Assembly: GCF_947503125.1 (NCBI RefSeq)
Contig: NZ_CANNCR010000037.1
Span: 1-44,176 of the forward strand
Length of the DNA: 44,176 bases
Reading direction: 5' to 3'
DNA from: an uncultured Metabacillus sp.
Lineage (GTDB): Bacteria > Bacillota > Bacilli > Bacillales > Bacillaceae
Shown: in pieces, positions 2,066 through 23,127 of the stretch
How the letters are laid out: each line of letters starts with the position of its first letter
Position numbering within the stretch: position 1 is the first letter of the stretch
The notes under the pieces: model-generated
Database searches by the model: none
Seen by the model: the letters and a program-made list of their open reading frames with translations, nothing else
What the model was told of the DNA's origin: nothing
Translations under genes and position numbers: made by a program

Positions 2066-3745
2066 TTGGCTGAACAACGTAGTAATATGATTAAACAAGG
2101 AATTGACCGTGCCCCACACAGAAGCTTGCTTCGTGCAGCCGGTGTAAAAGATGAAGATTTCGGCAAACCGTTTATCGCGGTCGTCAATTCATATATTGAT
2201 ATAGTTCCAGGGCATGTACATTTACAAGAATTCGGTAAAATCGTAAAAGACGCAATCCGTGAAGCTGGCGGTGTTCCATTTGAAATGAATACAATCGGTG
2301 TTGATGACGGGATTGCGATGGGCCATATTGGAATGCGCTATTCATTACCAAGTCGTGAAATCATCGCTGACTCAGTTGAAACAGTTGTTTCTGCCCATTG
2401 GTTTGATGGCATGGTTTGTATTCCAAACTGTGACAAAATTACACCAGGTATGTTAATGGCGGCTCTTCGTGTAAATATTCCAACGATTTTCGTTAGTGGT
2501 GGACCAATGAAAGCTGGTACAGATAAAGATGGTAATCCGCTTAACTTAAATTCAGTATTTGAAGGTGTTGGAGCCTACCAATCAGGTAAAATAACAGAAG
2601 AAAAACTTCAAGAAATTGAGCAATTTGCATGTCCAACATGTGGTTCGTGTTCAGGTATGTTTACAGCAAACTCAATGAACTGTCTAGCTGAAGGTCTTGG
2701 CCTTGCACTTCCGGGAAATGGAACCATTTTAGCTGTTTCTCCTGAACGTAGAGAATTTGTTAAACGCTCTGCTACACAGTTAATGGAACTTATTAAAAAA
2801 GATATTAAACCACGTGATATCGTTACGATTGATGCGATTGATAATGCTTTTGCATTAGATATGGCTATGGGTGGTTCGACCAATACTGTATTGCACACAC
2901 TTGCATTAGCACATGAAGCAGAAATTGATTATTCATTAGAACGTATCAATGATATTGCAAGCCGAGTACCACATCTGGCAAAAATTGCTCCTGCATCAGA
3001 TTACCATATTGAGGATGTTCATAACGCAGGTGGAGTAAGTGCAATCATTAATGAGGTCCTTAAAAAGCCTGGTGCTATTAATGGCGATTGCTTAACTGTT
3101 TCAGGCAAAACATTACGTGAAAATGTTGCAGGAGCAGATATTTTGGACAAGAATGTCATCCGTCCATTAGACAATCCACATTCTGAGCAAGGCGGTCTTG
3201 CCGTTTTATTTGGAAACTTAGCTCCAGATGGTGCGGTGATAAAAGTTGGTGCGGTTGACCCTGCTGTTGGCGGCTACCATAGAGGTCCTGCAATTTGCTT
3301 TGATTCGCAAGAAGAGGCACTTTCAGGAATTATTACTGGTAAAGTAAAAGAAGGCGATGTTGTTGTGATCCGTTATGAAGGTCCTAAAGGCGGACCAGGA
3401 ATGCCTGAAATGCTTGCCCCTACATCACAAATCGTTGGTAGAGGTCTTGGAGCAAAAGTAGGTTTAATTACTGACGGACGTTTCTCAGGTGCATCAAGAG
3501 GCATTTCAATCGGCCATATTTCACCAGAAGCTGCAGAAGGCGGTCCGATTGCATTTGTAGAAAATGGCGATATCATCGAACTTGATTTAAATAATCGTAC
3601 GATCACACTTGAAATTTCTGATGAAGAATTTGCAAAACGTAAAGCGAACTGGAAAGGCTTTGAACCTAAAGTAAAAAAAGGTTACTTAGCACGTTACTCT
3701 AAGCTCGTTACTTCTGCAAACACTGGTGGAGTAATGAAAATTTAA
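2066..3745 (+). CDS. ilvD: Dihydroxy-acid dehydratase
   Basis: 559 residues, the usual length for IlvD. It dehydrates 2,3-dihydroxy-isovalerate and 2,3-dihydroxy-3-methylvalerate to the 2-keto acids, the third common step of valine/isoleucine synthesis and a source of pantothenate precursor. Iron-sulphur cluster ligands are visible: [11 protein letters not shown] (about residue 122) and [18 protein letters not shown] (about 190-207); the motif [14 protein letters not shown] near residue 475 is also typical. A longer frame begins at TTG 2051, but GGAGG at 2053-2057 lies inside it and is 8 nt from TTG 2066, giving the N-terminus (M)[19 protein letters not shown] seen in Bacillus IlvD. Other ilv/leu genes are absent here, so ilvD is monocistronic, with its own CodY box and terminator. 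Confidence 0.97.
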
Positions 3746-3759
3746 TTAGAATGGGCTTG

Positions 3760-3802
3760 AACCTGTCAGTTACCCGAAAATTGGGATCTGAGAGGTTTTT
3801 TA
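3760..3802 (+). terminator. Rho-independent terminator of ilvD
   Basis: Imperfect hairpin: AACCT, CAG and CCC on the left arm pair with GGG, CTG and AGGTT on the right, followed by a T run (3796-3801). It begins 15 nt after the ilvD stop. Confidence 0.7.
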
Positions 3803-3831
3803 TTATAACCTCTAGTTAAACTCATTCGTGT

Positions 3832-3861
3832 AAAAAAAGCCTAACAATATTTTTGCTAGGC
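3832..3861 (-). terminator. Terminator of the GH127 gene
   Basis: On the minus strand GCCTAGCAA/TTGTTAGGC (one mismatch) is followed by seven T (3838-3832). It lies 19 nt beyond the GH127 stop. Confidence 0.8.
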
Positions 3862-3879
3862 CCTTATTAGAGGTATATA

Positions 3880-6168
3880 TTATTTCGAAATAACACTTTT
3901 GTCTTTTAAGATTCTAACCCGATAAACCCCTCCTGCAATTTTTCCATCTTCCGAAGCAAATTTCACTTCCACCTTTTCTTTTCCTTTTGTTAATGTAAGA
4001 GGGATATCGTAGCAAACATCAAAAAGCTTACCTGGATCGTTTCTTTTCAGAGTTTGATGAGTAATTTGTGACCCATCTATTAAAATATCAAATTCACGCT
4101 GATACGCTTTTCCGTCTTCATGCAAAATAGTATCATTCCCGCAGTAACTAACAAGCAGGTACATCTGATTATCCGGATGTACAGCCATTTCATAACTGAA
4201 ATAACCATCATTTTTACAATCTCTCCAGCCAGAATTGAAGAGGTTTAAAAAACCAGTCCTAGAATTTTTCGACTTAATTTCATGATCGACCTCTGGTTGC
4301 TGTTCATTTGGGTGAACAACATCAACCGTTATTTCTCTTAGTTTTTTCGCTTCCTCTTGTTCTTTGTCAACGAAAGACTGATAATCTGTTTCATCCATGA
4401 TATTCCAATAGATCGTATAGCGCTGATGATGCAGGTCATAAAAAGGAATGAGAGTGACGCTTACATTTCCAGGCTGTCCGATTTCAGCTGTTCGAAAGGC
4501 TAGCTTTTCTCCTGCAATTGGTGTAATCCACTTTGAAACTTCCTTTTCATTAGTAATAAGGTCTGGAACGTTTATTAAGGGATGGTCATTCAGCTTAACA
4601 TGATCAGAAATGATATCTGTTTCAGGGAATTTTTCTCTGCCTAAAGCCCCTGCCAACACAATCGGTCCATAAAGAATAGCAGCCTTTCTAGGATCATTTT
4701 TACTTCTTGAAAGGTGCAAACTCATCGGTATCTCGATATCAATGATATCACCTTCGCCCCATTGACCTTCAATGGTTATATAACCACGTTTTTGGGACTG
4801 GTATTGCTTTTGATCATTTACAAGGACAGTCATTGGTCCTGACGCCCAACCTGGTACCCTTATATGGAGCTTTACGTTTTCTTTTGTACCACTATTAAAT
4901 AATAGTTTTGTTTTATTAGATTCTGGAAAGTTTGTTACCTGCGTTAGCTTCAAATTTTTATTTTTTACATGAATTTCTGATGAGATAAAGAGATTTACAT
5001 ATAAATCATCTTGATTTACATAATAAATATGCCGATTATATCTTGCCGGATTTTCCATTCCTGTCCCAGTACAACACCAGAAAGACTCATCTGGCGTACA
5101 ATATACTTTGAAATGCCCAGGTTGTGTTGAGACAAAATATGTTTTCATTCCCGAATCAGGATCTTGTGAAGCTAGAATATGATTATAAAGCGCTTTTTCA
5201 TAGTAATCAGTGTATTCTGCTTTTTGTGACCATTGGAATAGTAATTCCGTTAACTTCAGCATATTATAGGTATTACACGTTTCGGTTGTTTGAATGCCAA
5301 GCTCTTCCGTATTTTCAGGGCCGAAATGCTCGTTTATACTATTACCGCCGATTACATACGATCGATGCTTTGTGACCTGTGTCCAAAAATACTCTGACAT
5401 TTGCTTATATGTTTCGTCACCGGTGATCATATAAAGCTTTGCAGCACCGATTACTTTCGGGATTTGTGTATTTGCATGCTTTCCTTGCAGATCATCTATT
5501 CCTTCTGCAAGAGGATCTAACACAGCCTTATGACAGAAACGAATGGCAAGATCCAAGTAGTTGCGATTGTTAGTAATAAGATAGAGATCTGCCATCGCCT
5601 CATTCATACCGCCGTGTTCACAGATAAGCATCCTTTGAAACTGCTCATCTGTTAATTGGTCTGTACCTTTTTTCGCCCAGTCGGCTAGCTTCATTACAAC
5701 GTCTAGTGCTTGTTCATTTCCTGTCAGCTGATACGTATCGATAAGACCCGCATAAATTTTATGAATGCTGTACCATGGGACCCATCCTCCGCCAAGGCTA
5801 AAATTTTCTACCTCAAAATCCCCGGTGAAAACCTTATCGAAACAGACTCTTGAAAACCCGCTTACATACCCTTCACCATCAAAGGCCTGGATAAGTGATA
5901 GCTCTTTTACTGCATAATCAAGTTTCTCCTTCAGTTTCTGCTCATTTGTTATTGAATACATCGTTGCTGCTGCCGAAAGCCAATGACCAATTGAATGACC
6001 ACTAATACCTGTTTTTTCCCAACCGCCATAACGGGGTTTTTTTGGTGTTTTCCCAGCAGCCTCATAGCAAGGTGCCAATAATCGATCAACATCAAGATAA
6101 AGAAGATATTCCTTTCCTTTTTCTTGTGATTGTTTAAACATGCCATCTAGTAATCGAACATTTTCCAT
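3880..6168 (-). CDS. GH127 glycoside hydrolase (beta-L-arabinofuranosidase, former DUF1680)
   Basis: 762 residues, an (alpha/alpha)6-barrel protein followed by beta domains. GH127 enzymes release L-arabinofuranose from beta-linked arabino-oligosaccharides using a zinc-bound cysteine nucleophile. The metal site of the family is visible: E296-T-C298 (in TTETCNTYN) and C365-C366 (in FWCCTGTGMENP), corresponding to Glu338, Cys340, Cys417 and Cys418 of Bifidobacterium HypBA1. HGGMNEAMADLYL (about 185-197) is also characteristic. No signal peptide, so it acts on imported oligosaccharides. The frame opens further upstream, but AAGGAGG is 8 nt before ATG 6168, which gives MENVRLLDGMF. It is divergent from an AraC regulator (6325), its likely controller. 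No transporter gene is adjacent. Some GH127-like proteins have other substrates, so the exact sugar is inferred. Confidence 0.88.
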   Translation of the reverse strand: MENVRLLDGMFKQSQEKGKEYLLYLDVDRLLAPCYEAAGKTPKKPRYGGWEKTGISGHSIGHWLSAAATMYSITNEQKLKEKLDYAVKELSLIQAFDGEGYVSGFSRVCFDKVFTGDFEVENFSLGGGWVPWYSIHKIYAGLIDTYQLTGNEQALDVVMKLADWAKKGTDQLTDEQFQRMLICEHGGMNEAMADLYLITNNRNYLDLAIRFCHKAVLDPLAEGIDDLQGKHANTQIPKVIGAAKLYMITGDETYKQMSEYFWTQVTKHRSYVIGGNSINEHFGPENTEELGIQTTETCNTYNMLKLTELLFQWSQKAEYTDYYEKALYNHILASQDPDSGMKTYFVSTQPGHFKVYCTPDESFWCCTGTGMENPARYNRHIYYVNQDDLYVNLFISSEIHVKNKNLKLTQVTNFPESNKTKLLFNSGTKENVKLHIRVPGWASGPMTVLVNDQKQYQSQKRGYITIEGQWGEGDIIDIEIPMSLHLSRSKNDPRKAAILYGPIVLAGALGREKFPETDIISDHVKLNDHPLINVPDLITNEKEVSKWITPIAGEKLAFRTAEIGQPGNVSVTLIPFYDLHHQRYTIYWNIMDETDYQSFVDKEQEEAKKLREITVDVVHPNEQQPEVDHEIKSKNSRTGFLNLFNSGWRDCKNDGYFSYEMAVHPDNQMYLLVSYCGNDTILHEDGKAYQREFDILIDGSQITHQTLKRNDPGKLFDVCYDIPLTLTKGKEKVEVKFASEDGKIAGGVYRVRILKDKSVISK

Positions 6169-6235
6169 ATTCATTTCCTCCTTGAATCCAACACATGTTG
6201 TCATATCCTTATTATTACAAGGCGATGGAGAAAAC

Positions 6236-6259
6236 GGAATTCACAATACAACTAATTCC
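6236..6259. promoter_or_regulatory. Inverted repeat between GH127 and AraC genes, possible operator
   Basis: GGAATT at 6236-6241 and AATTCC at 6254-6259 form a 6-bp inverted repeat with a 12-bp gap in the 156-bp divergent intergenic region. The position suits an AraC-type site serving both genes. The arms are short, so this is tentative. Confidence 0.3.
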
Positions 6260-6324
6260 ATATCTTTTTTTTGGTTTTTCTGTGATAAAATATAGAAAAC
6301 TTGAGTAGAGGGTGTGTTGGATAA

Positions 6325-7197
6325 ATGAATGAGGTCAATTTATTGTCATACAGTCTTCCTCTTATAAGAGAAATCGGTCATATGTGGGATGACAATGGAA
6401 CAAGCGGTCATCCAGATCGTCATATGGAAACGATAAATGTGTTTGTTTATGTAAAAAAAGGCAATATACAAGTGATAGAGGCCGGAACGGAATATACATT
6501 AACCGGCGGAGAATATCTTTTTCTTAGAAAAAATGTACCGCATTGGGGTACCTCCTTATATTCACCAGGCACAGAATGGTACTATATTCATTTTCACGAC
6601 ACATTAGATGAGATGGGCTTGGAGGATTCGCCGGAATTCTCTCATTACCAGCAATCATCTTTGATCTTAGAAGAAACCTATCATTCACATCTAAAATTAC
6701 CTAAGCAAGGGTCTGTAATAAACCCAGAGTATACCGAACTGCAGCTTAAGAAGCTTAATGAGGATTTTATTTCCCCGCACCCGCTTCGCCCACTCTATTT
6801 AAGTCTCATGACCTATCAATTTTTTATTGATTTATATATGAATCGATTAAAAGAGATGAAACAGACAAAACAAAGCAGGATTGTCGGCAAAATGATTGAA
6901 CTTTTTAGCCGCTCAGCTGCTACAAAATTAACAAGTAAGGAAATTGTAGATGAGCTCGGAATGAATTATGCCTATTTATCAACCTTATTTCGAAAAGAGA
7001 CAGGGAAAAGTATTACACAATTCCAGGATGAGCTATTAATTGAAAAAGCGATAAAGATGTTAAAAAAGGAATCTGTTAATATATCAGAGGTTAGTCATGC
7101 ATTAGGGTTCTCAAACCCCTTTTATTTTAGCAGAGTATTCAAGAAAGTAACCGGGGTATCACCAACTACCTATTTGAGTCAAACATATCGAAGCTAG
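6325..7197 (+). CDS. AraC-family transcriptional regulator (cupin + HTH)
   Basis: 290 residues. The first 150 or so form a cupin-like sensing domain (VYVKKGNIQVIEAG, GGEYLFLRKNVPHW), and the C-terminal 100 residues hold the two helix-turn-helix units of the AraC/XylS family: LTSKEIVDELGMNYAYLSTLF with KETGKSITQF, then VSHALGFSNPFYFSRVFKKV with TGVSPTTYL. Such proteins are usually activators of sugar-use genes that respond to a mono- or oligosaccharide. ATG 6325 has a modest GAGGGTG upstream. It is divergent from the GH127 gene, so the likely role is induction of arabinoside breakdown; this is inferred from position only. A hairpin with a T-rich tail closes the gene at 7199-7238. Confidence 0.88.
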   Translation: MNEVNLLSYSLPLIREIGHMWDDNGTSGHPDRHMETINVFVYVKKGNIQVIEAGTEYTLTGGEYLFLRKNVPHWGTSLYSPGTEWYYIHFHDTLDEMGLEDSPEFSHYQQSSLILEETYHSHLKLPKQGSVINPEYTELQLKKLNEDFISPHPLRPLYLSLMTYQFFIDLYMNRLKEMKQTKQSRIVGKMIELFSRSAATKLTSKEIVDELGMNYAYLSTLFRKETGKSITQFQDELLIEKAIKMLKKESVNISEVSHALGFSNPFYFSRVFKKVTGVSPTTYLSQTYRS

Positions 7198-13189: not shown

Positions 13190-15079
13190 TCAAAGATTAA
13201 ATTTTCGTACCCGCTTATAAAATGTACTTCTTGGAATGTTTAAGTATTCAGCTGCTAATGTTACATTTCCATTTGTTTTCTGCAATGCCTGAATCATCTG
13301 TTCTTTTTGGATTTTTTCACGTAGGGTTAATTTTTCTGAATTCGAATTTATTAGTGAACTTGGAGAGTTACGATCAAAAATAAGATTTTTTTGCTTACTT
13401 TCAAATAAAGAAGGTAAAAAATGCTGTAATTGTTCGGTTTGCTTTACTCCTCCTTTAACTAAAATATTTATTCTCTCAATGACATTTAATAGCTCTCGTA
13501 TATTCCCTGGCCAATCGTGTTTCATCATTGCAAGGTGAATTTCCTCTGGAATCTCGAAATCCCAAGCATGTTTTTGACAAAAATATCGAATTAGGTATGG
13601 AATATCTTCTTTTCTATCTCGTAACGCTGGTACAGTAATTGGATAGACATGAAGTCTGTAATACAAGTCCTCCCGGAAGGTTCCTTCACAAACCATTTGG
13701 TAAAGATCGCGATTAGTAGCTGCAATTACCCTAATATTTAGAGGAATTTCCTTTGTACCGCCAATAGGTGTTATTGTCCGCTCTTGAAGGACTCTTAATA
13801 AAGACACTTGCATGGATTCTGAAATTTCACCAATTTCATCTAAAAAAATCGTTCCATTGTTCGCTTGTTCAAATTTACCTTTATACCCTTGCCGACGCGC
13901 ACCTGTAAAAGCTCCTTCTACATAACCAAATAGCTCACTTGCCATTAATTCTTTATGGATGGCTCCACAATTCACCGCAACAAAAGGTCCATTTTTTCTT
14001 GAACTATTTTCATGAATTGATCGTGCACAAAGTTCCTTGCCTGTTCCCGTTTCCCCATAAATACAAACACTCGCATCTGTTTTGGCTACAAGCTTCATTT
14101 CAACAAGTGCTTTTTGAAAAGCATTGCTTGTTCCTGTTTCACCTTTAAAATGAAACTTTTCTATTTCAACACTAGGAATGAAAAAAGAGTTGGCCCTCGT
14201 TGTTAACTGATCTTTTAAATAAATGGCCCGGCCGATCAAATGAGCATGTCTATAATCAGAATAAATCGGTATGTCTAATTGAATGGTCAGGCCGAATTCC
14301 TGTAAATCCTCAAGATTAGTACCTATGAAAGTCATAAATCTTTCCCGCAATGAATTACTTGCAAACACTATTTCATGTTGATTATTACAAATAATAACTA
14401 GTTCGTTGGTTTCCGTATATTTAATTGATTTTTGCATTAATTCATATTCATCTTTATGTACATTGAAACTTAATTCACGTTCAATCGCATATGCAACAGA
14501 AGTTACCATTCCAAGCATAAACGGATGGGAGCGCTCAACTGGACAAGAAACATCAATAACTCCCAGCAATTTCCCACCAGCATCCCGGATGGGCGCAGCA
14601 GCACAGCTCCAATAATGCGAAGCGATTGTGTAATGCTCTGAACCAGTTATCATGATTGGTTCTCCAATTTGCAGAACAGTTCCAATCGCATTCGTCCCAA
14701 CTTCATTCTCCGTCCAGCGGATCCCTTCGACAAAATTAATGGCACTCGCCCTATGGAGTATCTCTTTATTACCGGAAACCGATAATACATAACCATCCGG
14801 ATCTATAATAAGAGCCATCATTCCTAAGGATGTAATAGAATCATATAAACGATGAATGTGAGGCTGTGCGACATTCAAAAGAGATTTATTTTTTTCCTTT
14901 TGTGTTTCAAACTCTTCCTTCGAAAGAATAGTTGTCCCTTCATGTTGATATGGATTGACATCAGCTTTCTTACAACGGTACCAGGATTCGCTAATTTGCT
15001 TAGAAATACGTGATGAATCAAGTGTACCTTCATTAACAAACCGTTTCCACGTGTTTAATGGGAGTACAGTGTCCATCAT
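13190..15079 (-). CDS. acoR: Sigma-54-dependent activator of acetoin catabolism
   Basis: 629 residues with AcoR architecture. The N-terminal GAF-type sensor (about 70-210) includes WTENEVGTNAIGT and SCAAAPIRDAGGKLLGVIDVS. The central AAA+ domain (about 310-540) has Walker A GETGTGKELCARSIH, the sigma-54 contact loop GYVEGAFTGARRQGYKGKFE (GAFTGA intact) and Walker B GTIFLDEIGE. The C-terminal Fis-type HTH is GNVTLAAEYLNIPRSTFYKR. It activates -24/-12 promoters of acetoin genes in response to acetoin. ATG 15079 has GAGGAG 9 nt upstream. The gene is last on the strand after acoABCL and bdhA, with its own promoter at 15164-15193. Its likely site is the inverted repeat at 21693-21726. In B. subtilis acoR is the step through which CcpA represses the aco operon; a cre-like site lies upstream here too. 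Confidence 0.92.
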   Translation of the reverse strand: MMDTVLPLNTWKRFVNEGTLDSSRISKQISESWYRCKKADVNPYQHEGTTILSKEEFETQKEKNKSLLNVAQPHIHRLYDSITSLGMMALIIDPDGYVLSVSGNKEILHRASAINFVEGIRWTENEVGTNAIGTVLQIGEPIMITGSEHYTIASHYWSCAAAPIRDAGGKLLGVIDVSCPVERSHPFMLGMVTSVAYAIERELSFNVHKDEYELMQKSIKYTETNELVIICNNQHEIVFASNSLRERFMTFIGTNLEDLQEFGLTIQLDIPIYSDYRHAHLIGRAIYLKDQLTTRANSFFIPSVEIEKFHFKGETGTSNAFQKALVEMKLVAKTDASVCIYGETGTGKELCARSIHENSSRKNGPFVAVNCGAIHKELMASELFGYVEGAFTGARRQGYKGKFEQANNGTIFLDEIGEISESMQVSLLRVLQERTITPIGGTKEIPLNIRVIAATNRDLYQMVCEGTFREDLYYRLHVYPITVPALRDRKEDIPYLIRYFCQKHAWDFEIPEEIHLAMMKHDWPGNIRELLNVIERINILVKGGVKQTEQLQHFLPSLFESKQKNLIFDRNSPSSLINSNSEKLTLREKIQKEQMIQALQKTNGNVTLAAEYLNIPRSTFYKRVRKFNL

Positions 15080-15243: not shown

Positions 15244-15364
15244 AATTACCTGTACAATTTGATTCAGCTATCGGTATTCGTTAATAAGTTTATTATAACG
15301 ATATATGTAAGCACTTACAACTGATTTTTCATTTTTATCAATCTTCAAGATTGTACAGGTAATT
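15244..15364. repeat. 15-bp inverted repeat enclosing a cre-like site, acoR upstream region
   Basis: AATTACCTGTACAAT (15244-15258) is repeated inverted and perfect at 15350-15364, with 91 bp between. The enclosed DNA holds TGTAAGCACTTACA (15306-15319), a near-perfect palindrome matching 13 of 14 cre positions. The pair lies in the 315-bp gap between bdhA and acoR, upstream of the acoR promoter. It may be a paired operator, a large hairpin at the bdhA 3' end, or the ends of a small non-autonomous element. Confidence 0.6.
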
Positions 15365-15394: not shown

Positions 15395-16444
15395 TCATGT
15401 TGGGGAAACAAGAATTTTAATATGGTTTTTGTTTTTGATTAATTCTTCAAACCCGCCTTCTATTATATTCTGTAAAACTATTTTTTCGGTTATAACCTCT
15501 TCAACAGGTAATCTCCCTTCAGCTATTAATCGAATCGTCATTGGGAATACATTTCGATAACCCAAGATCCCTTTCAATTGCCGTTCTTTTAAGACAAGAC
15601 TATTTGGTGAAATACTTGACTCTTTTTCCCATATACTTACAATAAGTACCTGTCCCCTCGTTTTTGCACATTCAATCGCATCGTTTAAACAAACATCCAC
15701 ACCCGTTACCTCAAAGCAAACATCTGCCCCGCCATTGGTTAACTCATTAACAGCTTCTATTACGTTTTCCTTAATAGGGTTAATAACAAAATGTGCTCCA
15801 ACATTTTTTGCAAGTTTTTGTCTTTCTTCAGAAATTTCAACAGCAATTATTTTACTAGCACCTGCTGAAACTGCTGCCTGAATAATCAGTAATCCTATCG
15901 GTCCTGCACCAAAAACAACGCAAGAATCACCTGCTTTTAAGGCACTTTCCCTAACTGCATGAACAGCAACAGCTGTAGGCTCAACCAATGCACCTTGTTC
16001 ATATGTCATATAATCTGGCAAAATATGAACCATTTCTTCGTTTACTGTGACAAATTCTGAAAAGCCGCCTCCACCGCCAGCTAATCCTAAAAACCCCAAT
16101 TGTTCACAGACATTATATGTTCCCGCTTTACAAGCCTTACACATACCACAGGCGAAAATGGGCTCTACTGTTACCTTATCGCCAACCTTAACTCTTGTTA
16201 CACCATCGCCTATTTCAGTCACTATACCAGAGAATTCATGACCTAATATAACCGGGACTTCCTCTCCTGTTAAAGGATGAGGCTGGGTGGGTAGAAAGAT
16301 GGGACCTGCAAGATATTCATGTAAATCTGTACCGCAAATACCGCACCATTTCACACGAATTTTTACCATACCAGACTGAATCATTGGTTCTTCTACTTCT
16401 TCAATCCGAATATCTCGAACTCCATACCATTTTGCAGCTTTCAT
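15395..16444 (-). CDS. bdhA: 2,3-butanediol dehydrogenase, zinc-dependent (MDR family)
   Basis: 349 residues, the medium-chain dehydrogenase fold. Catalytic zinc ligands: Cys in CGICGTDLHEY (about 37) and GHEFSG; the structural zinc loop is CGMCKACKAGTYNVC (about 100-114). The NAD-binding Rossmann motif is VVFGAGPIGLLIIQ (about 175-188). The insert LAGPIFLPTQPHPLTGEEVPVILGHE is typical of (R,R)-butanediol dehydrogenases of Bacillus. It interconverts 2,3-butanediol and acetoin with NAD(H), supplying acetoin to the neighbouring Aco complex. GGAG is 9 nt before ATG 16444; the frame opens slightly upstream. It follows acoL by about 200 nt with a possible terminator between, so read-through or a separate promoter are both possible. 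Stereochemistry is inferred. Confidence 0.88.
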   Translation of the reverse strand: MKAAKWYGVRDIRIEEVEEPMIQSGMVKIRVKWCGICGTDLHEYLAGPIFLPTQPHPLTGEEVPVILGHEFSGIVTEIGDGVTRVKVGDKVTVEPIFACGMCKACKAGTYNVCEQLGFLGLAGGGGGFSEFVTVNEEMVHILPDYMTYEQGALVEPTAVAVHAVRESALKAGDSCVVFGAGPIGLLIIQAAVSAGASKIIAVEISEERQKLAKNVGAHFVINPIKENVIEAVNELTNGGADVCFEVTGVDVCLNDAIECAKTRGQVLIVSIWEKESSISPNSLVLKERQLKGILGYRNVFPMTIRLIAEGRLPVEEVITEKIVLQNIIEGGFEELIKNKNHIKILVSPT

Positions 16445-16565
16445 GAACATCAACTCCGTATCATCTTATTATTTTAAATAATAGGACTTCAGTAAATTTA
16501 CCTAACTGAATATAGTTAGTGATCTTTCTTTCTTCTATAAACTTTTCGAACAAATAAAGCATGGT

Positions 16566-16640: not shown

Positions 16641-18020
16641 CTAGAAATGAACGGTATGGCCAACCGAACCAAGAATCGCTTCATGAACAGCTTCACCCAA
16701 AGATGGATGTGCAGCTACAAAGTTTTCTAGAACATCAACTGTTAACTCGGTATGTAACATTAATGTCGCTTGTCCAATTAACTCTGTAGCACGAGGACCA
16801 ATAATGGATACCCCAATAATCGATTGATATTCTGGTTCAATGATGATCTTGACTTTTCCGTTCTGCTCATTAAGTATAAGTGCTTTACCGTTTGCTGCAA
16901 AAGGAAATTCTCCGATTTTCAAGTCATGAAATTGATTTCTCGCTTCCTTTTCTGTTAAACCAACACTCGCTATTTCAGGTGCTGTATAAATACAGCGCGG
17001 CACTGCTTGATAATTTACACTAGTCTCGTGACCACAAGCATGATTAGCAGCAACTGTTCCTTCATGAAAAGCAACATGTGCAAGCTGTATTCCTCCTATA
17101 ACATCACCACACGCATAGATATGAGAATAAGAGGTTTGCATATATTCATTTACATGAATTCCTTTTTCACAAAAAGAAACGCCGATCTTTTCGAGTCCAA
17201 GCTCGTTCACACGCGGTTTTCTTCCTACCGATACAAGCACATAATCCCCACCAAAAGTCCTATTTTCTTCTCCTTGTCGAATTGTCACTTCTTTTAAATT
17301 TCTATTAACATGCTTTAATGCTGTATCTGTATATATTGTGACACCTTCTTTTTCAAGCTCCTGTGTTAAAAATGAAACAATATCCGGATCCTCTGCAGGC
17401 AGGAGCTGGTTTGCCATCTCAATAATCGTAACTTTTGTTCCCATCCGGCTAAAAATGCTTGCAAATTCGCAGCCAATTACCCCGCCGCCAATAATAATGA
17501 TTGATTCTGGGACTGAAGGCAAATCAAGTGCTTGACGACTATCTATGATCCATTCTCCATCAAAAGGAGCAAAAGGAAGCTGGATCGGTTCTGAGCCAGT
17601 GGCAATAATAATATTATCTGCATCGATTTCTTCCTGTGAAACACCTTTATCGATTAAAAGTCGATGGCTTGTAAGAAATGAAGCTGAACCATTTATCACA
17701 TTTATTTTATTTTTTTTCATTAAGTAGCCAATTCCATTTACGAGATTATTTACAATGTTATTTTTATATGATAATACTTGTGTCCAATTAATTGAGACAC
17801 TCCTGTTATCAAGCTGCACCCCAAATTTATTGGCTTTTTTTACCTTCCCATAAATATCCGCACTTTCTAAAAGAGATTTGGTAGGCATACACCCCTCATT
17901 TAAACAAGTACCACCTAAACTTTTTTGTTCTACTAAGATTACCTGTTTACCCTGCTGGGCAGCGACAATTGCCGCTACATACCCAGCAGGACCTCCTCCA
18001 ATAATGACAAGCTTTGACAA
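16641..18020 (-). CDS. acoL: Dihydrolipoyl dehydrogenase (E3) of the acetoin dehydrogenase complex
   Basis: 459 residues, normal for E3. The FAD motif is VIIGGGPAGYVAAIVA at the N-terminus, the redox-active disulphide is GGTCLNEGCMPTKSLL (about 36-51), the NAD motif is IIIGGGVIGCEFASIFSRMG (about 175-194), the second FAD contact is YACGDVIGG, and the C-terminal catalytic pair is in AAHPSLGEAVHEAI. It reoxidises dihydrolipoamide on E2 with NAD. The start is TTG 18020 after GGTGGTG. In contrast to the tight acoA-acoB-acoC spacing, acoL is separated from acoC by 213 nt of structured non-coding DNA. It is last in the aco operon. Confidence 0.93.
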   Translation of the reverse strand: MSKLVIIGGGPAGYVAAIVAAQQGKQVILVEQKSLGGTCLNEGCMPTKSLLESADIYGKVKKANKFGVQLDNRSVSINWTQVLSYKNNIVNNLVNGIGYLMKKNKINVINGSASFLTSHRLLIDKGVSQEEIDADNIIIATGSEPIQLPFAPFDGEWIIDSRQALDLPSVPESIIIIGGGVIGCEFASIFSRMGTKVTIIEMANQLLPAEDPDIVSFLTQELEKEGVTIYTDTALKHVNRNLKEVTIRQGEENRTFGGDYVLVSVGRKPRVNELGLEKIGVSFCEKGIHVNEYMQTSYSHIYACGDVIGGIQLAHVAFHEGTVAANHACGHETSVNYQAVPRCIYTAPEIASVGLTEKEARNQFHDLKIGEFPFAANGKALILNEQNGKVKIIIEPEYQSIIGVSIIGPRATELIGQATLMLHTELTVDVLENFVAAHPSLGEAVHEAILGSVGHTVHF

Positions 18021-18233: not shown

Positions 18234-19454
18234 TTAAGATTGAGATAAAAGAATTTGATAAGGTTTTTCAAGCAGTTGTTTGATTGATTTTAAAAACTCT
18301 GCAGCAGGTGCACCATCAAGTACCCGATGGTCAAATGTTAGACTAAGAGGCAGAATACTTCTTCTTTGTAGTTCCTCTCCAACAAATACGGGTGTTTCTG
18401 TTACAGCTCCAACCCCTAAAATTCCTGTCTCTGGTGTATTTAAGATTGGTGTAAAATGTTCTACCCCATAAGAACCTAAGTTCGTAATCGTAAAGGTAGA
18501 ACCTGAAATTTGTTCTGTAGTCAACTGACCTGCTCTTGCCTGTTTTGCAAGGGTTTTAATTGTCTTTGAAAGCTCAAGTAAAGAACATGTTTCAGCATGA
18601 CGAACAACTGGTACTACTAAGCCGTTTTCCAGCGCCACTGCGATACCAAGATGAACATGCTCAAAGCTTTCAATGGCATCATTAATAAGCGCACTGTTCA
18701 TGTTTTTATGCTTCATCAAGGTTAGAACCACAGCACGTGAAATAAAATCATTTAATGATAGTTTACTTTCGTCTTGAAGTTCCTCGCGAAGTGACTTTTG
18801 TAAATGGATAAGATCCGTTACATCTGCCTTCATATTGATTGTTAGTTGTGCTGAATGTAAAAGGCTTTCCTGCATTCGTGTCGCAATCACCTTCCGCATT
18901 CCTGAAATCGTTGTTTTATTTACACTCCTTGGGTCATGAGTGTTGACGGGTTGTTCCTGTTCAAGCTTTTGTTTTTTTCTTTCCTCTATAGCATGGAGAA
19001 CATCTTCTTTTGTGATTCTTCCATTTGGTCCTGAACCTTTTATTTGTTCAAGATTCAATCCCGCTTTTTCAGCCATTTTTTTCGCAATAGGTGAAGCTTT
19101 TATTGACTGCTTTTCATTGCTTGTATCCTGTATAGAAGTAGTTTCCTCCTCAACGTTTGTTCCCATATTTTCAGCTGCTTCTGTTTGCGGGGTTACAAGT
19201 GTAGCAAGCTTTTCATCCGGGTTACCAATGAAGCAGATCGGAGTCCCGGGAGGAACGCCATTTCCCTCTTGAACTGCTATTTCTAAAAGAGTTCCATCGA
19301 CTGGTGCCTCAAGGTCTGTTTCAATTTTTTCAGAGCTAATTCCTGCAAGTAACTCCCCTTTGTTAACAACATCCCCAACATGTTTATTCCAATAGCTAAC
19401 AGTTCCCTCTTTCATAGACATCCCGAGCTTAGGCATCACAACTTCTACTGCCAT
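18234..19454 (-). CDS. acoC: Dihydrolipoyllysine acetyltransferase (E2) of the acetoin dehydrogenase complex
   Basis: 406 residues. N-terminal lipoyl domain with the lipoylated Lys in GISSEKIETDLEAP (about 42-55), one lipoyl domain only. A linker rich in Glu and Thr follows, then the peripheral-subunit-binding domain SPIAKKMAEKAGLNLEQIKG with GPNGRITKEDVL (about 120-150). The C-terminal catalytic core ends in LTFDHRVLDGAPAAEFL, with the active His and Asp. It transfers the acetyl group from E1-bound hydroxyethyl-TPP to CoA. ATG 19454 follows AAGGAGG with a 10-nt gap; the gene lies 21 nt after acoB. No damage. Confidence 0.94.
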   Translation of the reverse strand: MAVEVVMPKLGMSMKEGTVSYWNKHVGDVVNKGELLAGISSEKIETDLEAPVDGTLLEIAVQEGNGVPPGTPICFIGNPDEKLATLVTPQTEAAENMGTNVEEETTSIQDTSNEKQSIKASPIAKKMAEKAGLNLEQIKGSGPNGRITKEDVLHAIEERKKQKLEQEQPVNTHDPRSVNKTTISGMRKVIATRMQESLLHSAQLTINMKADVTDLIHLQKSLREELQDESKLSLNDFISRAVVLTLMKHKNMNSALINDAIESFEHVHLGIAVALENGLVVPVVRHAETCSLLELSKTIKTLAKQARAGQLTTEQISGSTFTITNLGSYGVEHFTPILNTPETGILGVGAVTETPVFVGEELQRRSILPLSLTFDHRVLDGAPAAEFLKSIKQLLEKPYQILLSQS

Positions 19455-19475: not shown

Positions 19476-20510
19476 TTAAACGATTTGCAGCGATTTATCT
19501 CCGAGCATTTCTGAGACTACAGCAATGATTTTTTCCGGTGTTGGCAGGTAAAGATCTTCTAATGGAGGTGAAAAGGGAACCGGCGTATGCGGAGCAGTAA
19601 TTCGCTTTATTGGTGCATCTAGCAAATCAAAACCCTCATCAGCCACCATTGCTGCGATATCTGTTGCTATACTGCATCGAGGATTTGCCTCATCAATGAC
19701 AATAAGTCGGTTTGTTTTCTCGACAGAATTTAAAATTGTCTCTGAATCTAGCGGTGACAAGCTTCTAGGGTCAACTACCTCCAACTCAATTCCTTTTTTC
19801 GCCAGTTGCTCTGCAGCAGTAAGAGCGGTATGAACTTGTTTGCCGATAGCAACGATTGTTACATCTGAACCTTCTCTTTTCACATCTGCTTTTCCTAATG
19901 GTATTGTGTAATAGCCTTCAGGTACTTCACCTGTCGTATTGTATAATGTTTTGTCCTCAAAATAGATAACTGGATCATTATCTTCAATAGCAGCAAGCAA
20001 TAAGCCTTTTGCATCATAGGCCGTAGAAGGAACAACCACTTTAATCCCTGGCATGCTTGTGAATAATGCATACAAGCTTTGCGAATGCTGTGCAGCGGCA
20101 CGGAATCCTGCACCATGGGTAGTACGGATGGTCACTGGAACTTGAGCTTTTCCGCCAAACATATAACGAAACTTGGCACCTTGATTAAGCACTTGGTCCA
20201 AGCAACTTCCAATAAAGTCATTAAACATTAATTCTGCAATTGGACGTAAACCAGTTGCCGCTGCAGCCATTGCAGCCCCCATATATCCCGCTTCGGCAAT
20301 TGGTGTATCAAGAATACGGTCCCTTCCAAATTCTTGAACTAATCCCTTCGTCACGCCTAGTACACCACCCCATGCTTCATCATCTTGTAGATGATCCACT
20401 GCAGCTCCTCCTGCAACATCTTCACCTAATAAAATGACATTCTCATCCTTACGCATTGCTAGCTTTATCGCTTCATTAATTGCATTTGATACACTGATTA
20501 TTCTTCCCAT
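19476..20510 (-). CDS. acoB: Acetoin dehydrogenase E1 component, beta subunit
   Basis: 344 residues, the transketolase-like pyrimidine-binding and C-terminal domains of an E1 beta chain. Typical segments: ILLGEDVAGGAAVDHLQ near 25-41, DTPIAEAGYMGAAMAAAATG near 70-89, GGKAQVPVTIRTTHGAG near 118-134, and EVVDPRSLSPLDSETIL near 243-259. With AcoA it forms the TPP-dependent E1 that cleaves acetoin into acetaldehyde and an enzyme-bound hydroxyethyl group. ATG 20510 follows CAGGAGG. It starts 34 nt after the acoA stop, in the same operon. Confidence 0.94.
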   Translation of the reverse strand: MGRIISVSNAINEAIKLAMRKDENVILLGEDVAGGAAVDHLQDDEAWGGVLGVTKGLVQEFGRDRILDTPIAEAGYMGAAMAAAATGLRPIAELMFNDFIGSCLDQVLNQGAKFRYMFGGKAQVPVTIRTTHGAGFRAAAQHSQSLYALFTSMPGIKVVVPSTAYDAKGLLLAAIEDNDPVIYFEDKTLYNTTGEVPEGYYTIPLGKADVKREGSDVTIVAIGKQVHTALTAAEQLAKKGIELEVVDPRSLSPLDSETILNSVEKTNRLIVIDEANPRCSIATDIAAMVADEGFDLLDAPIKRITAPHTPVPFSPPLEDLYLPTPEKIIAVVSEMLGDKSLQIV

Positions 20511-20544: not shown

Positions 20545-21540
20545 TTAATAAGATACATAAACATCTGTTAACAATTCAGATGGGTCAGGGTAATCACTTT
20601 CTTCAGCAAATGTAACCGCATTTTGCACAGCTTCTTTTACCTTATTCTCATAGTTTTCAATCTCATTAATAGTAAGAAGCTGATTTTCAATAGCAAACTC
20701 CTTAAAAAGCTTTATCGCATCTCGTTCATCACGATGCTGCGCTTTATCCTCATCGGTCTTATATTTTTGAGCATCTCCCTCAAAATGTCCGTAATTTCTA
20801 TACGTCATACACTCAATTAATGTTGGACCTTCTCCACGTCTGGCCCGATCGATCGCTTCTCCTGCCGCTTTATAAACAGCCATTACATCTTTTCCATCTA
20901 TCCGAACACCAGGAATATTATAAGCGCTTGCACGGTCTGAAATTTGTTTACATGCCGAAGCATATTCAAATGGCGTTGCTTCACCATAGCCGTTATTCTC
21001 GGCAACGAAAACAACTGGGAGCTTCCAAATCGCTGCTAAATTTATTCCTTCGTGGAAGGTCCCTTCGTTATTTGCACCATCGCCAAAGAAGCATACAGCT
21101 ACAGCATTTGTTTTCTTATATTTCGCAGTTAAGGCTGCCCCTGCTGCGAGCGGAAAGCCTCCGCCAACAATTCCATTTGCCCCAAGCATTCCTTTATCTA
21201 AATCAGCAATATGCATGGATCCCCCCTTTCCTTTACAAAGTCCTGTTGCCTTACCAAACAACTCAGCCATCATGCCATTTAAGTCACAACCCTTTGCTAT
21301 ACAATGTCCATGACCGCGATGTGTACTAGTAATATAATCCCTTTCATTTAAATGTGCACAACAACCAACTGCTATCGCTTCCTCACCTGCATAAAGGTGG
21401 ACAAATCCAGGCAAAACTCCTTTTGCAAATATATTGTGGACCTCATCCTCAAAATAGCGAATCTCCAGCATTTTTTGATAGATCCACTCTACTTTTTCTT
21501 TTGTGATCATACTGCTTACTTTTTCCCTTGTTTTTTCCAT
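20545..21540 (-). CDS. acoA: Acetoin dehydrogenase E1 component, alpha subunit
   Basis: 331 residues. The TPP-binding motif is GDGANNEG followed by TFHEGINLAAIWKLPVVFVAENN (about 160-190), and the E1-alpha loop includes STHRGHGHCIAKG (about 73-85) and GGSMHIADLDKG (about 115-126). The latter run, with KGMLGANGIVGGGFPLAAGAA, is typical of AcoA and pyruvate-dehydrogenase alpha chains; the neighbours acoB, acoC, acoL, bdhA and acoR fix the acetoin role. ATG 21540 has AGGAGGGG 8-9 nt upstream. First gene of the operon, driven by the -24/-12 promoter at 21624-21639. Confidence 0.94.
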   Translation of the reverse strand: MEKTREKVSSMITKEKVEWIYQKMLEIRYFEDEVHNIFAKGVLPGFVHLYAGEEAIAVGCCAHLNERDYITSTHRGHGHCIAKGCDLNGMMAELFGKATGLCKGKGGSMHIADLDKGMLGANGIVGGGFPLAAGAALTAKYKKTNAVAVCFFGDGANNEGTFHEGINLAAIWKLPVVFVAENNGYGEATPFEYASACKQISDRASAYNIPGVRIDGKDVMAVYKAAGEAIDRARRGEGPTLIECMTYRNYGHFEGDAQKYKTDEDKAQHRDERDAIKLFKEFAIENQLLTINEIENYENKVKEAVQNAVTFAEESDYPDPSELLTDVYVSY

Positions 21541-21562
21541 GATTTTTCCCCTCCTGTTTTTA

Positions 21563-21576
21563 GTAAATCGTTTACA
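21563..21576. promoter_or_regulatory. Possible cre site in the acoA leader
   Basis: On the minus strand TGTAAACGATTTAC matches 12 of 14 positions of the cre consensus. It lies between the sigma-54 promoter and the acoA ribosome binding site. Direct CcpA repression would add to control through acoR. Confidence 0.35.
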
Positions 21577-21623
21577 TTTTTACTGTGAGGCATTTAACAT
21601 AGAATGCTCTACACATTTATCAA

Positions 21624-21639
21624 TGCAAAAACCGTGCCA
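21624..21639 (-). promoter_or_regulatory. Sigma-54 (-24/-12) promoter of acoABCL
   Basis: On the minus strand TGGCAC (21639-21634), 5 nt, TTGCA (21628-21624): a perfect match to TGGCAC-N5-TTGCW. The predicted start is about 70 nt before acoA. Confidence 0.9.
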
Positions 21640-21692
21640 AAGTTGTGTACCACTAGCAAAAGTGAATTTTATAGAATTTACTTTTTATCTTT

Positions 21693-21726
21693 TAGACAAA
21701 ATGAGATAGATGTCTCGTTTTGTCTA
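21693..21726. promoter_or_regulatory. Probable AcoR upstream activating site
   Basis: TAGACAAAATGAGA (21693-21706), a 6-nt spacer and TCTCGTTTTGTCTA (21713-21726), pairing at 13 of 14 positions. The centre is about 72 bp from the acoA -24 element and about 103 bp from the divergent -24 element at 21812. Position and symmetry fit an enhancer-type site for a sigma-54 activator. That AcoR binds it is inferred. Confidence 0.65.
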
Positions 21727-21811
21727 CTTTTTTATCCAGAAAATAGAGAAGGAACGAAAGCATTACACTATATTTGAAGTTCAGATAAGTCATTTTTCCT
21801 TCAAGTCAATT

Positions 21812-21827
21812 TGGCATACTATTTGCA
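21812..21827 (+). promoter_or_regulatory. Second sigma-54-type promoter, divergent, facing the Spo0E-like gene
   Basis: TGGCAT (21812-21817), 5 nt, TTGCA (21823-21827): one deviation (T for C) from the consensus, a common variant. The predicted start is near 21839, about 42 nt before the Spo0E-like GTG start. Confidence 0.7.
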
Positions 21828-21880
21828 AGCATTTATTTTAAAAAAATAGAAAGTGATTATCTTTGGAGGAGGGTGGTCAA

Positions 21881-22042
21881 GTGGAGATTAACGACCTTTT
21901 ACTTATTGAAATTGAAGAGATGTCTACTCAATTACTTAATCTTTACCGGGAATGCAATGAAAATCTTTTGCATCCTCAACTTATACATGCAAGTCAAAGA
22001 TTAGATCAATTAATGAATACGTACAGATCCATTACAAAATGA
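21881..22042 (+). CDS. Spo0E-family aspartyl-phosphate phosphatase (53 codons)
   Basis: GTG at 21881 is preceded by GGAGGAGGG (21865-21873). The product ends with LLHPQLIHASQRLDQLMN followed by TYRSITK and has IEEMSTQLLNLY before it, a two-helix hairpin with the SQxLD signature of the Spo0E/YisI/YnzD family. These small proteins dephosphorylate Spo0A~P and so delay sporulation. No sign of damage. The gene is transcribed away from acoA and is preceded by a sigma-54-type promoter and a site shared with the aco operon; a terminator follows at 22065-22095. Family membership is read from the motif; the target (Spo0A) is known for the family, not shown here. Confidence 0.82.
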   Translation: MEINDLLLIEIEEMSTQLLNLYRECNENLLHPQLIHASQRLDQLMNTYRSITK

Positions 22043-22063
22043 AGGAATGGATTGTTAATGAGG

Positions 22064-22096
22064 AAAGGGTACACATTATTGTGCACCCTTGTTTTC
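22064..22096 (+). terminator. Terminator of the Spo0E-like gene
   Basis: AAGGGT and CAC (22065-22074) pair with GTG and ACCCTT (22081-22090), followed by GTTTTC. The convergent LysR remnant ends at 22114. Confidence 0.65.
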
Positions 22097-22113
22097 TGAA
22101 AAGGAGGTTCGCG

Positions 22114-22985
22114 TTATAAAGCTGCCATCTCTTCTTCTAAAAATTCGCTAAAAGTAAGAACTTCATTGGTTTGCAGTTTCGTGATCAAATAAGTTGAAGA
22201 AGTAGGAAGATTAATTTTATCTGCTTTAATTTCCACTAATTTTTTTAACATTAGTTCTTCCTTGATCATTGTAGTCGGTAAATACGAAATGCCCAGCCCT
22301 TGTTCAATAAATCGTTTCGTAATTTCAATTTGATTAACTTTCATTGTTCGAACGAACGGATAGCTATTTTTAATTATCTTTAAAAGACCGTCCCAATATT
22401 CAGGGTGATTATGGGTGATTAGCCTGTATTTTTGTAATACATTACTTTCGTTATTGTCCGTGATATTTTCGTTTGCAGGCCCAACTAAAATGACTGAATC
22501 TTCATGGATAGTTTTGCAATGTACATTTGGGTGGATCGTCCTTATTCTAGAAAGTCCTATATCAGCTCTCCCACTACTAATTTCTTCACCAATTTCAAAA
22601 GAAGGAATTATGTTTATTAACACTTCAATCCCAGGATATTTTTCCATAAATCTCCGCAATATTGCAGGCAGGATCGACGATGCAATTTGCGGGGCTGCTG
22701 CAATGATGACCTTTTGTTGATAGCCTTGTTTCCAAGATTCAAATGTTTCTAATCCCTCTTCATATTTCTTTACAATTTCCCTTGCTATTGGTAAAAATCG
22801 ATAACCGGCTGGCGTGAGAATAATTGATTTTCCATTTCTTTCAAACAACTTACTACTTATGCTTTCTTCAAGTCTTTGAATATGTTTTGTGATCGCAGGC
22901 TTGTTAGAAAAAGTTCTTCTGCTGTTTTTCGAAAATTTTCATAGCTTGCTGCGACAATAAATGTTTTGAGCCATTTTATCTCCAT
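22114..22985 (-). pseudogene. LysR-family regulator, broken by a -1 frameshift in the HTH
   Basis: ATG 22985 has AGGAGATC upstream and reads MEIKWLKTFIVAASYENFRK then TAEELFLT, the normal LysR N-terminus. The frame then fails at about 22902: the continuing HTH (PAITKHIQRLEESISSKLFE) is found in another frame, as though one C were missing where family members have LTQPAI. The rest is intact in the second frame to 22114: a substrate-binding domain with AAAPQIASSILPAILRRF and QGLGISYLPTTMI. A single lost base in an otherwise clean gene suggests recent inactivation or a sequence error. It is convergent with the Spo0E-like gene and divergent from the methyltransferase. Confidence 0.8.
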
Positions 22986-23127
22986 TACGATCTCCTCTAA
23001 TAACACTTCGTTATCAATCTTGCTTAAATTCGTTAATTTTTATTATTTATCGTTTCAATTATAATCTAATTAACAGAAATATACAGATTTTTTCTTTTCA
23101 AACAAAATTAAGAGGGAGAGAGTAAAC

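Follow-up and report, generated by a model that had tools for sequence, protein, structure and literature searches.

Divergent sigma-54 promoter elements between acoABCL and a Spo0E-family gene in an uncultured Metabacillus sp.: a possible link between acetoin use and Spo0A

How carbon overflow products are tied to the sporulation decision is the question addressed by a locus of an uncultured Metabacillus sp., in which the acetoin operon acoABCL lies divergent from a small gene of the Spo0E family. The stretch of DNA analyzed here, referred to as the window, comprises 44,176 nt of contig NZ_CANNCR010000037.1 (assembly GCF_947503125.1). The 5.44 Mb source genome (G000) also encodes Spo0A, and a PF04552 match on contig C27 marks its sigma-54. 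The analyses below suggest, with moderate probability, that one bidirectional region lets AcoR and sigma-54 induce acetoin breakdown together with a brake on Spo0A~P.

Layout of the aco locus

The features of the locus are summarized in Table 1. The three ORFs that follow acoA were taken to be acoB, acoC, and acoL after the known operon, and the name of the butanediol-dehydrogenase-like gene is likewise presumptive. The activator gene, whose product combines GAF, sigma-54 AAA+, and Fis-type HTH domains, is presumably acoR, judging by its gene context. The nearest relative of acoA was found in Bacillus sp. SA1-12 (G011), with 94% identity. Within the genus, AcoA matches at E 1e-100 or better were found in 5 of 21 genomes. 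A second acoA-like gene of the source genome (contig C18, 32767-33732; L035) is 53% identical to acoA, and has neither the aco repeat nor a matching sigma-54 element upstream. The LysR-type gene adjoining the Spo0E-like gene (22114-23006, minus strand) is present as two ORFs in the window and as a single 294-aa ORF in Bacillus sp. SA1-12.

Two cre-like sites were also located, one in the aco leader and one in front of acoR. The latter resembles the cre box listed for B. subtilis acoR; both acoR and acoA of B. subtilis are listed with cre boxes (PMC3463425). The cre pattern scan gave 36 matches, versus 25.7 expected. Together, the two sites hint that aco might be subject to glucose repression as in B. 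subtilis.

Table 1. Coordinates of the features at the aco/Spo0E-like locus (positions in the window)
Feature	Position	Strand	Basis or remark
acoR, GAF + sigma-54 AAA+ + Fis-type HTH activator (presumed name)	13190..15079	-	Pfam matches; GAFTGA at residue 389
Palindromic cre-like site ATGTAAGCACTTACA in the gap separating acoR from the butanediol-dehydrogenase-like gene	15305-15320		one mismatch
Butanediol-dehydrogenase-like gene (presumed name)	15395-16453	-	ORF
acoL (presumed name)	16641-18020	-	ORF and gene order
acoC (presumed name)	18234-19454	-	ORF and gene order
acoB (presumed name)	19476-20510	-	ORF and gene order
acoA, first gene of acoABCL	20545..21540	-	331-aa ORF
cre-like site TGTAAACGATTTAC in the aco leader	21563..21576	-	weak, departing from the cre pattern at two or more bases; 14/14 columns kept in Bacillus sp. 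SA1-12
Sigma-54 -24/-12 promoter of acoA, TTGGCACGGTTTTTGCA	21624..21640	-	strict genome pattern search
Imperfect inverted repeat, proposed AcoR enhancer (UAS) for both promoters	21693..21726	.	15 base pairs, G-T included; 4-base loop
Sigma-54 -24/-12 element facing the Spo0E-like gene, TTGGCATACTATTTGCA	21811..21827	+	strict genome pattern search
Ribosome binding site GGAGGAGGGTGG	21865..21876	+	read in the sequence; GGGAGGG at the same place in Bacillus sp. SA1-12
Spo0E-family gene, divergent from acoA	21881..22042	+	GTG start, 53 aa
Possible terminator of the Spo0E-like gene: imperfect hairpin GGGTACACATTATTGTGCACCC followed by a T-rich stretch	22067..22088	+	identical in Bacillus sp. SA1-12; no call in the terminator scan

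Two divergent sigma-54 elements

A strict sigma-54 pattern (TTGGCAYN5TTGCW) was searched in the source genome, with the reversed pattern as control. Thirteen sites were found in the 5.44 Mb, versus none in the control, and two of the 13 flank the aco/Spo0E-like intergenic region. A first-pass annotation had described this pair, with a promoter of acoABCL at 21624-21639 and a second element at 21812-21827 carrying one deviation. Both elements are present, each one base longer than described, and both match the pattern exactly. The deviation, a T for C at the seventh base, is ordinary: it is present in a number of other aco promoters, and the same T for C is found in the kam and sox promoters of the B. 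thuringiensis sigma-54 table (PMC4428206). A strict match like that of the acoA promoter is present in 78 of the 115 aco loci, window included.

The 17-mer of the plus-strand element has an identical copy on contig C20 of the source genome, 44 bp before a FAD-oxidoreductase-like ORF that has a catabolic look (labeled by eye). This copy is one of three strict sites within 5 kb (2704-7055; L023-L025), and the surrounding genes resemble, by eye, a hydroxyproline/proline catabolic cluster.

Is the plus-strand element a promoter, or is it a chance match beside a small gene that uses an ordinary promoter or is silent? Three of the 13 strict sites lie inside long ORFs (L018, L019, L022), and for two others (L028, L029) the ORF listing shows no sense ORF that begins nearby; a strict match alone is thus no proof of a promoter. 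A chance match would also suit the occurrence of the element in two species only, and the 9-of-12 sigma-70-like match that overlaps it, one of four such matches in the region versus 2.7 in shuffles. However, at the genome rate, the arithmetic chance that a strict site falls on a specified strand of a specified stretch of about 150 bp is about 2e-4. Thirty Spo0E-like loci were scanned upstream, 28 of them with a parsed ORF, and no sigma-54 element was found within 350 bp at 26 of these 28; the exceptions were the window and Bacillus sp. SA1-12, in which the consensus positions are kept. A chance match is therefore considered improbable.

The order of acoABCL, the Spo0E-like gene, and the LysR and methyltransferase-like genes is the same in Bacillus sp. 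SA1-12 as in the window. The two intergenic regions are 74% identical over 342 columns, gaps counted. The plus-strand element is identical at 15 of 17 positions, and both changes fall in the spacer. The aco promoter is kept at 14/17 and the inverted repeat at 29/34, the stretch between the repeat and the plus-strand element at 56/85 (66%), and the leader of the Spo0E-like gene has drifted (31/53 columns identical). Among the 137 17-base windows on that side of the repeat, one was better kept than the element and seven were equal; therefore, conservation supports the plus-strand promoter without being decisive. Rarity in the genome and conservation in a second species together support a second sigma-54 promoter facing the small gene.

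The inverted repeat and the proposed control region

The inverted repeat between the two elements had been annotated at the same position with arms of 14+14 bp, and at distances of about 72 and 103 bp from the promoters. It was found to have one pair more, counting G-T. Measured from its center, the aco -24 is 70.5 bp away and the plus-strand -24 is 102.5 bp away, about three helical turns farther than on the aco side. The corresponding distances in Bacillus sp. SA1-12 are 69.5 and 103.5 bp, and the promoter-to-promoter distance is 173 in both.

The repeat scores 25/26 against the consensus GACAAAAYGAGAC..GTCTCRTTTTGTC. When the 400 bp upstream of acoA were scanned, a score of at least 20 was obtained in 98 of 114 aco loci, compared with none of 114 mononucleotide shuffles (best shuffle 18); these loci are partly redundant, with 106 distinct 300-bp upstream sequences among 115. 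Among the 16 loci that fall below this score are five distant acoA genes from the genus (L032-L036). With up to three mismatches allowed, whole-genome scans located the repeat at one place each in the source genome and Bacillus sp. SA1-12. A half-site scan of the window with at most two mismatches gave eight matches versus 5.6 expected by chance; since this is near chance, only the exact pair that forms the arms of the repeat is meaningful. The repeat is thus common to aco loci, usually about 70 bp behind the -24, absent from the shuffles, and confined to a single place in either genome; very probably, it is the AcoR enhancer.

The same structure could also be read as a transcription terminator. 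Its 15-pair stem and 4-base loop are followed by a T-rich stretch on the plus strand, and no other terminator-like site was found in 21500-22150 (0.2 expected). However, no known plus-strand gene ends at the repeat, and its half-site consensus recurs upstream of acoA in 98 of 114 loci, at stepped distances. We regard the terminator as highly improbable, and the repeat is treated below as a candidate enhancer.

Spacing was compared in 88 aco loci that have both a repeat and a -24 element, duplicates removed. The distance from repeat center to -24 is 68.5-72.5 bp in 65 loci, 59.5-60.5 in eight, 80.5-83 in five, 91-92.5 in three, 103-106 in two, and longer in five. The spacings thus step by roughly one helical turn, and 102.5 bp is near this ladder. 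Depending on the period assumed, a distance drawn at random would match the ladder no worse than 102.5 or 103.5 with a probability from about 0 to 0.33, so that helical phasing proves little alone. The distance of the plus-strand promoter counts against co-induction, at 102 bp versus about 70 bp at most aco promoters. It would suit a different arrangement, in which the repeat serves aco alone, and the plus-strand promoter, 32 bp farther away than the aco side, works with sigma-54 weakly or through another activator. This arrangement is doubtful, although slightly less so than a chance match: there is no second such repeat in the genome within three mismatches, and 102.5 bp lies close to a natural aco spacing, for what the ladder is worth.

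Co-induction, which the first-pass annotation had proposed together with a delay of spore formation, therefore remains the preferred reading; that proposal is partly supported. In this reading, the intergenic region would control sigma-54 transcription in both directions. AcoR, whose gene lies in the cluster, would sense acetoin, bind the repeat, and activate sigma-54 RNA polymerase at the two divergent promoters. On one side, the acoABCL promoter would be reached from a repeat center 70 bp away. On the other side, an apparently monocistronic Spo0E-family gene would be reached from 102 bp, on the same helical face. Its 53-aa product would be expected to bind Spo0A~P and remove the phosphate, which would lower Spo0A activity during acetoin consumption.

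The Spo0E-family gene, its distribution, and known systems

The small ORF, which had been described as a 53-codon Spo0E-like gene with a good ribosome binding site, is preceded by GGAGGAGGG, and its product passes Pfam PF09388 (SpoOE-like) with 30.8 bits, against a curated cut-off of 23. The SxxxD signature is present as SQRLD at residues 38-42; S, Q, L, and D are invariant in an 11-row alignment, and the motif is intact in both species. The AlphaFold2 model (mean pLDDT 93.6) has helices at 3-24 and 32-52, so the product has the size and the predicted fold of the family (40-100 aa, two-helix hairpin). The top Foldseek match in the PDB was 2c0s, titled as a protein aspartic acid phosphate phosphatase of Bacillus anthracis (prob 0.96, TMq 0.80), with a weak E of 0.83; none of the Foldseek matches was as good as E 0.001, and no Spo0E chain was recovered when solved structures were searched by sequence (best E 0.82). 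The proteins of the window and Bacillus sp. SA1-12 are 81% identical. The NG86 dN/dS between the two is 0.14 for the Spo0E-like gene and 0.07 for acoA, and the former value indicates purifying selection on the small ORF. These data support membership in the Spo0E family, from which a Spo0A~P phosphatase activity may be predicted.

The small protein might also be induced by AcoR together with aco while acting on another response regulator or regulatory protein, which would shift the effect to something besides sporulation entry. It is a divergent paralogue: six other PF09388 matches above the cut-off are encoded in the genome, and matches outside Bacillus sp. SA1-12 are at most 44% identical. 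C. difficile Spo0E has been modeled with RstA as well as with Spo0A (PMC11115286). The same paper describes the aspartate of the SxxxD motif as critical for Spo0E function in B. subtilis, and the intact motif argues against another target. A target other than Spo0A~P is thus rather unlikely, and Spo0A~P is kept as the presumed substrate.

The distribution of the layout was analyzed in 115 aco loci: the window (L030), two copies of the Bacillus sp. SA1-12 locus (L031, L065), and 112 others, a set that leaves out 13 AcoA matches without a locus and 387 of 467 relatives. The upstream flank covered at least 1 kb in 113 of the loci and at least 3 kb in 75, and the Spo0E HMM was built from 11 Spo0E-like proteins, including those of the window and Bacillus sp. 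SA1-12. No Spo0E-like ORF was detected by the HMM in the upstream flanks of the 112 other loci, which indicates that the wiring is narrow. Nor does a strict sigma-54 element in divergent orientation occur within 450 bp at any of the 112. The first-pass annotation had proposed that the divergent layout be sought in related aco loci, with absence from all relatives counting against it; it is not absent from all, since Bacillus sp. SA1-12 has it. Protein searches of 60 relatives, 397 genomes of the order, and 398 of the class (overlapping sets) found a close relative of the Spo0E-like protein only in Bacillus sp. SA1-12, and no match was found among PLSDB plasmids. The layout was found in these two related species only.

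A looser sigma-54 pattern adds divergent elements at two loci, L108 and L111. At L108 (Paenibacillus sp. P25), the gene divergent from aco looks by eye like a sigma-54 gene, presumably rpoN/sigL. A divergent -24/-12-like element lies near -301, with the aco repeat in between. In this organism, AcoR might possibly raise its own sigma factor.

The small protein resembles the Spo0E family members Spo0E, YisI, and YnzD in size, in the SxxxD motif, and in the two-helix fold predicted here. YisI and YnzD are Spo0E-family Spo0A~P phosphatases. To our knowledge, no member of the family is under sigma-54 or beside a catabolic operon. In the titles and abstract openings of the open-access papers searched, we found no Spo0E-family gene described under sigma-54 or AcoR, and no direct link described from acetoin sensing to Spo0A. 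If the proposal is true, the Spo0E family would come under metabolite control through sigma-54, with this gene the first such member known to us, and sporulation would be delayed while acetoin is consumed, via a direct acetoin-sensing link to Spo0A. It is in our judgment an even call whether, from one enhancer, an enhancer-binding protein that senses a metabolite switches on both a catabolic operon and a dedicated Spo0A~P phosphatase, so that acetoin directly tells the cell not to sporulate yet.

In B. velezensis, the consumption of acetoin and butanediol keeps pace with spore production, and the two compounds raise sporulation efficiency and total spore number (PMC12532671). The raised efficiency argues against a simple stop-signal role of acetoin across Bacillus. 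The same treatments extend the sporulation period (PMC12532671), which is compatible with a delay, the layout being known from the window and Bacillus sp. SA1-12. In the portion of that paper drawn on here, AcoR/SigL induction is described as merely coinciding with Spo0A activation, and Spo0E is mentioned once, in the context of sporulation bistability (PMC12532671).

The closest known systems are the AcoR/sigma-54 acoABCL of B. subtilis and B. thuringiensis, which share the operon, the GAF activator, and the -24/-12 promoter (PMC4428206). Other aco loci analyzed here share the upstream inverted repeat as well, whereas the window differs in its strict divergent -24/-12 element facing a Spo0E-family gene. 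In B. thuringiensis, the sigma-54 promoters of soxB and soxC depend on a single SoxR site, which acts for soxR as well (PMC4941409). The sox locus is similar in that its sigma-54 promoters share a binding site; its targets are different, comprising sarcosine genes and the activator's own gene, with no developmental regulator named in the part of that account used here (PMC4941409). The sharing of an enhancer among sigma-54 promoters is therefore already known from sox (PMC4941409), and the new part of the present locus seems to be its Spo0E-family target.
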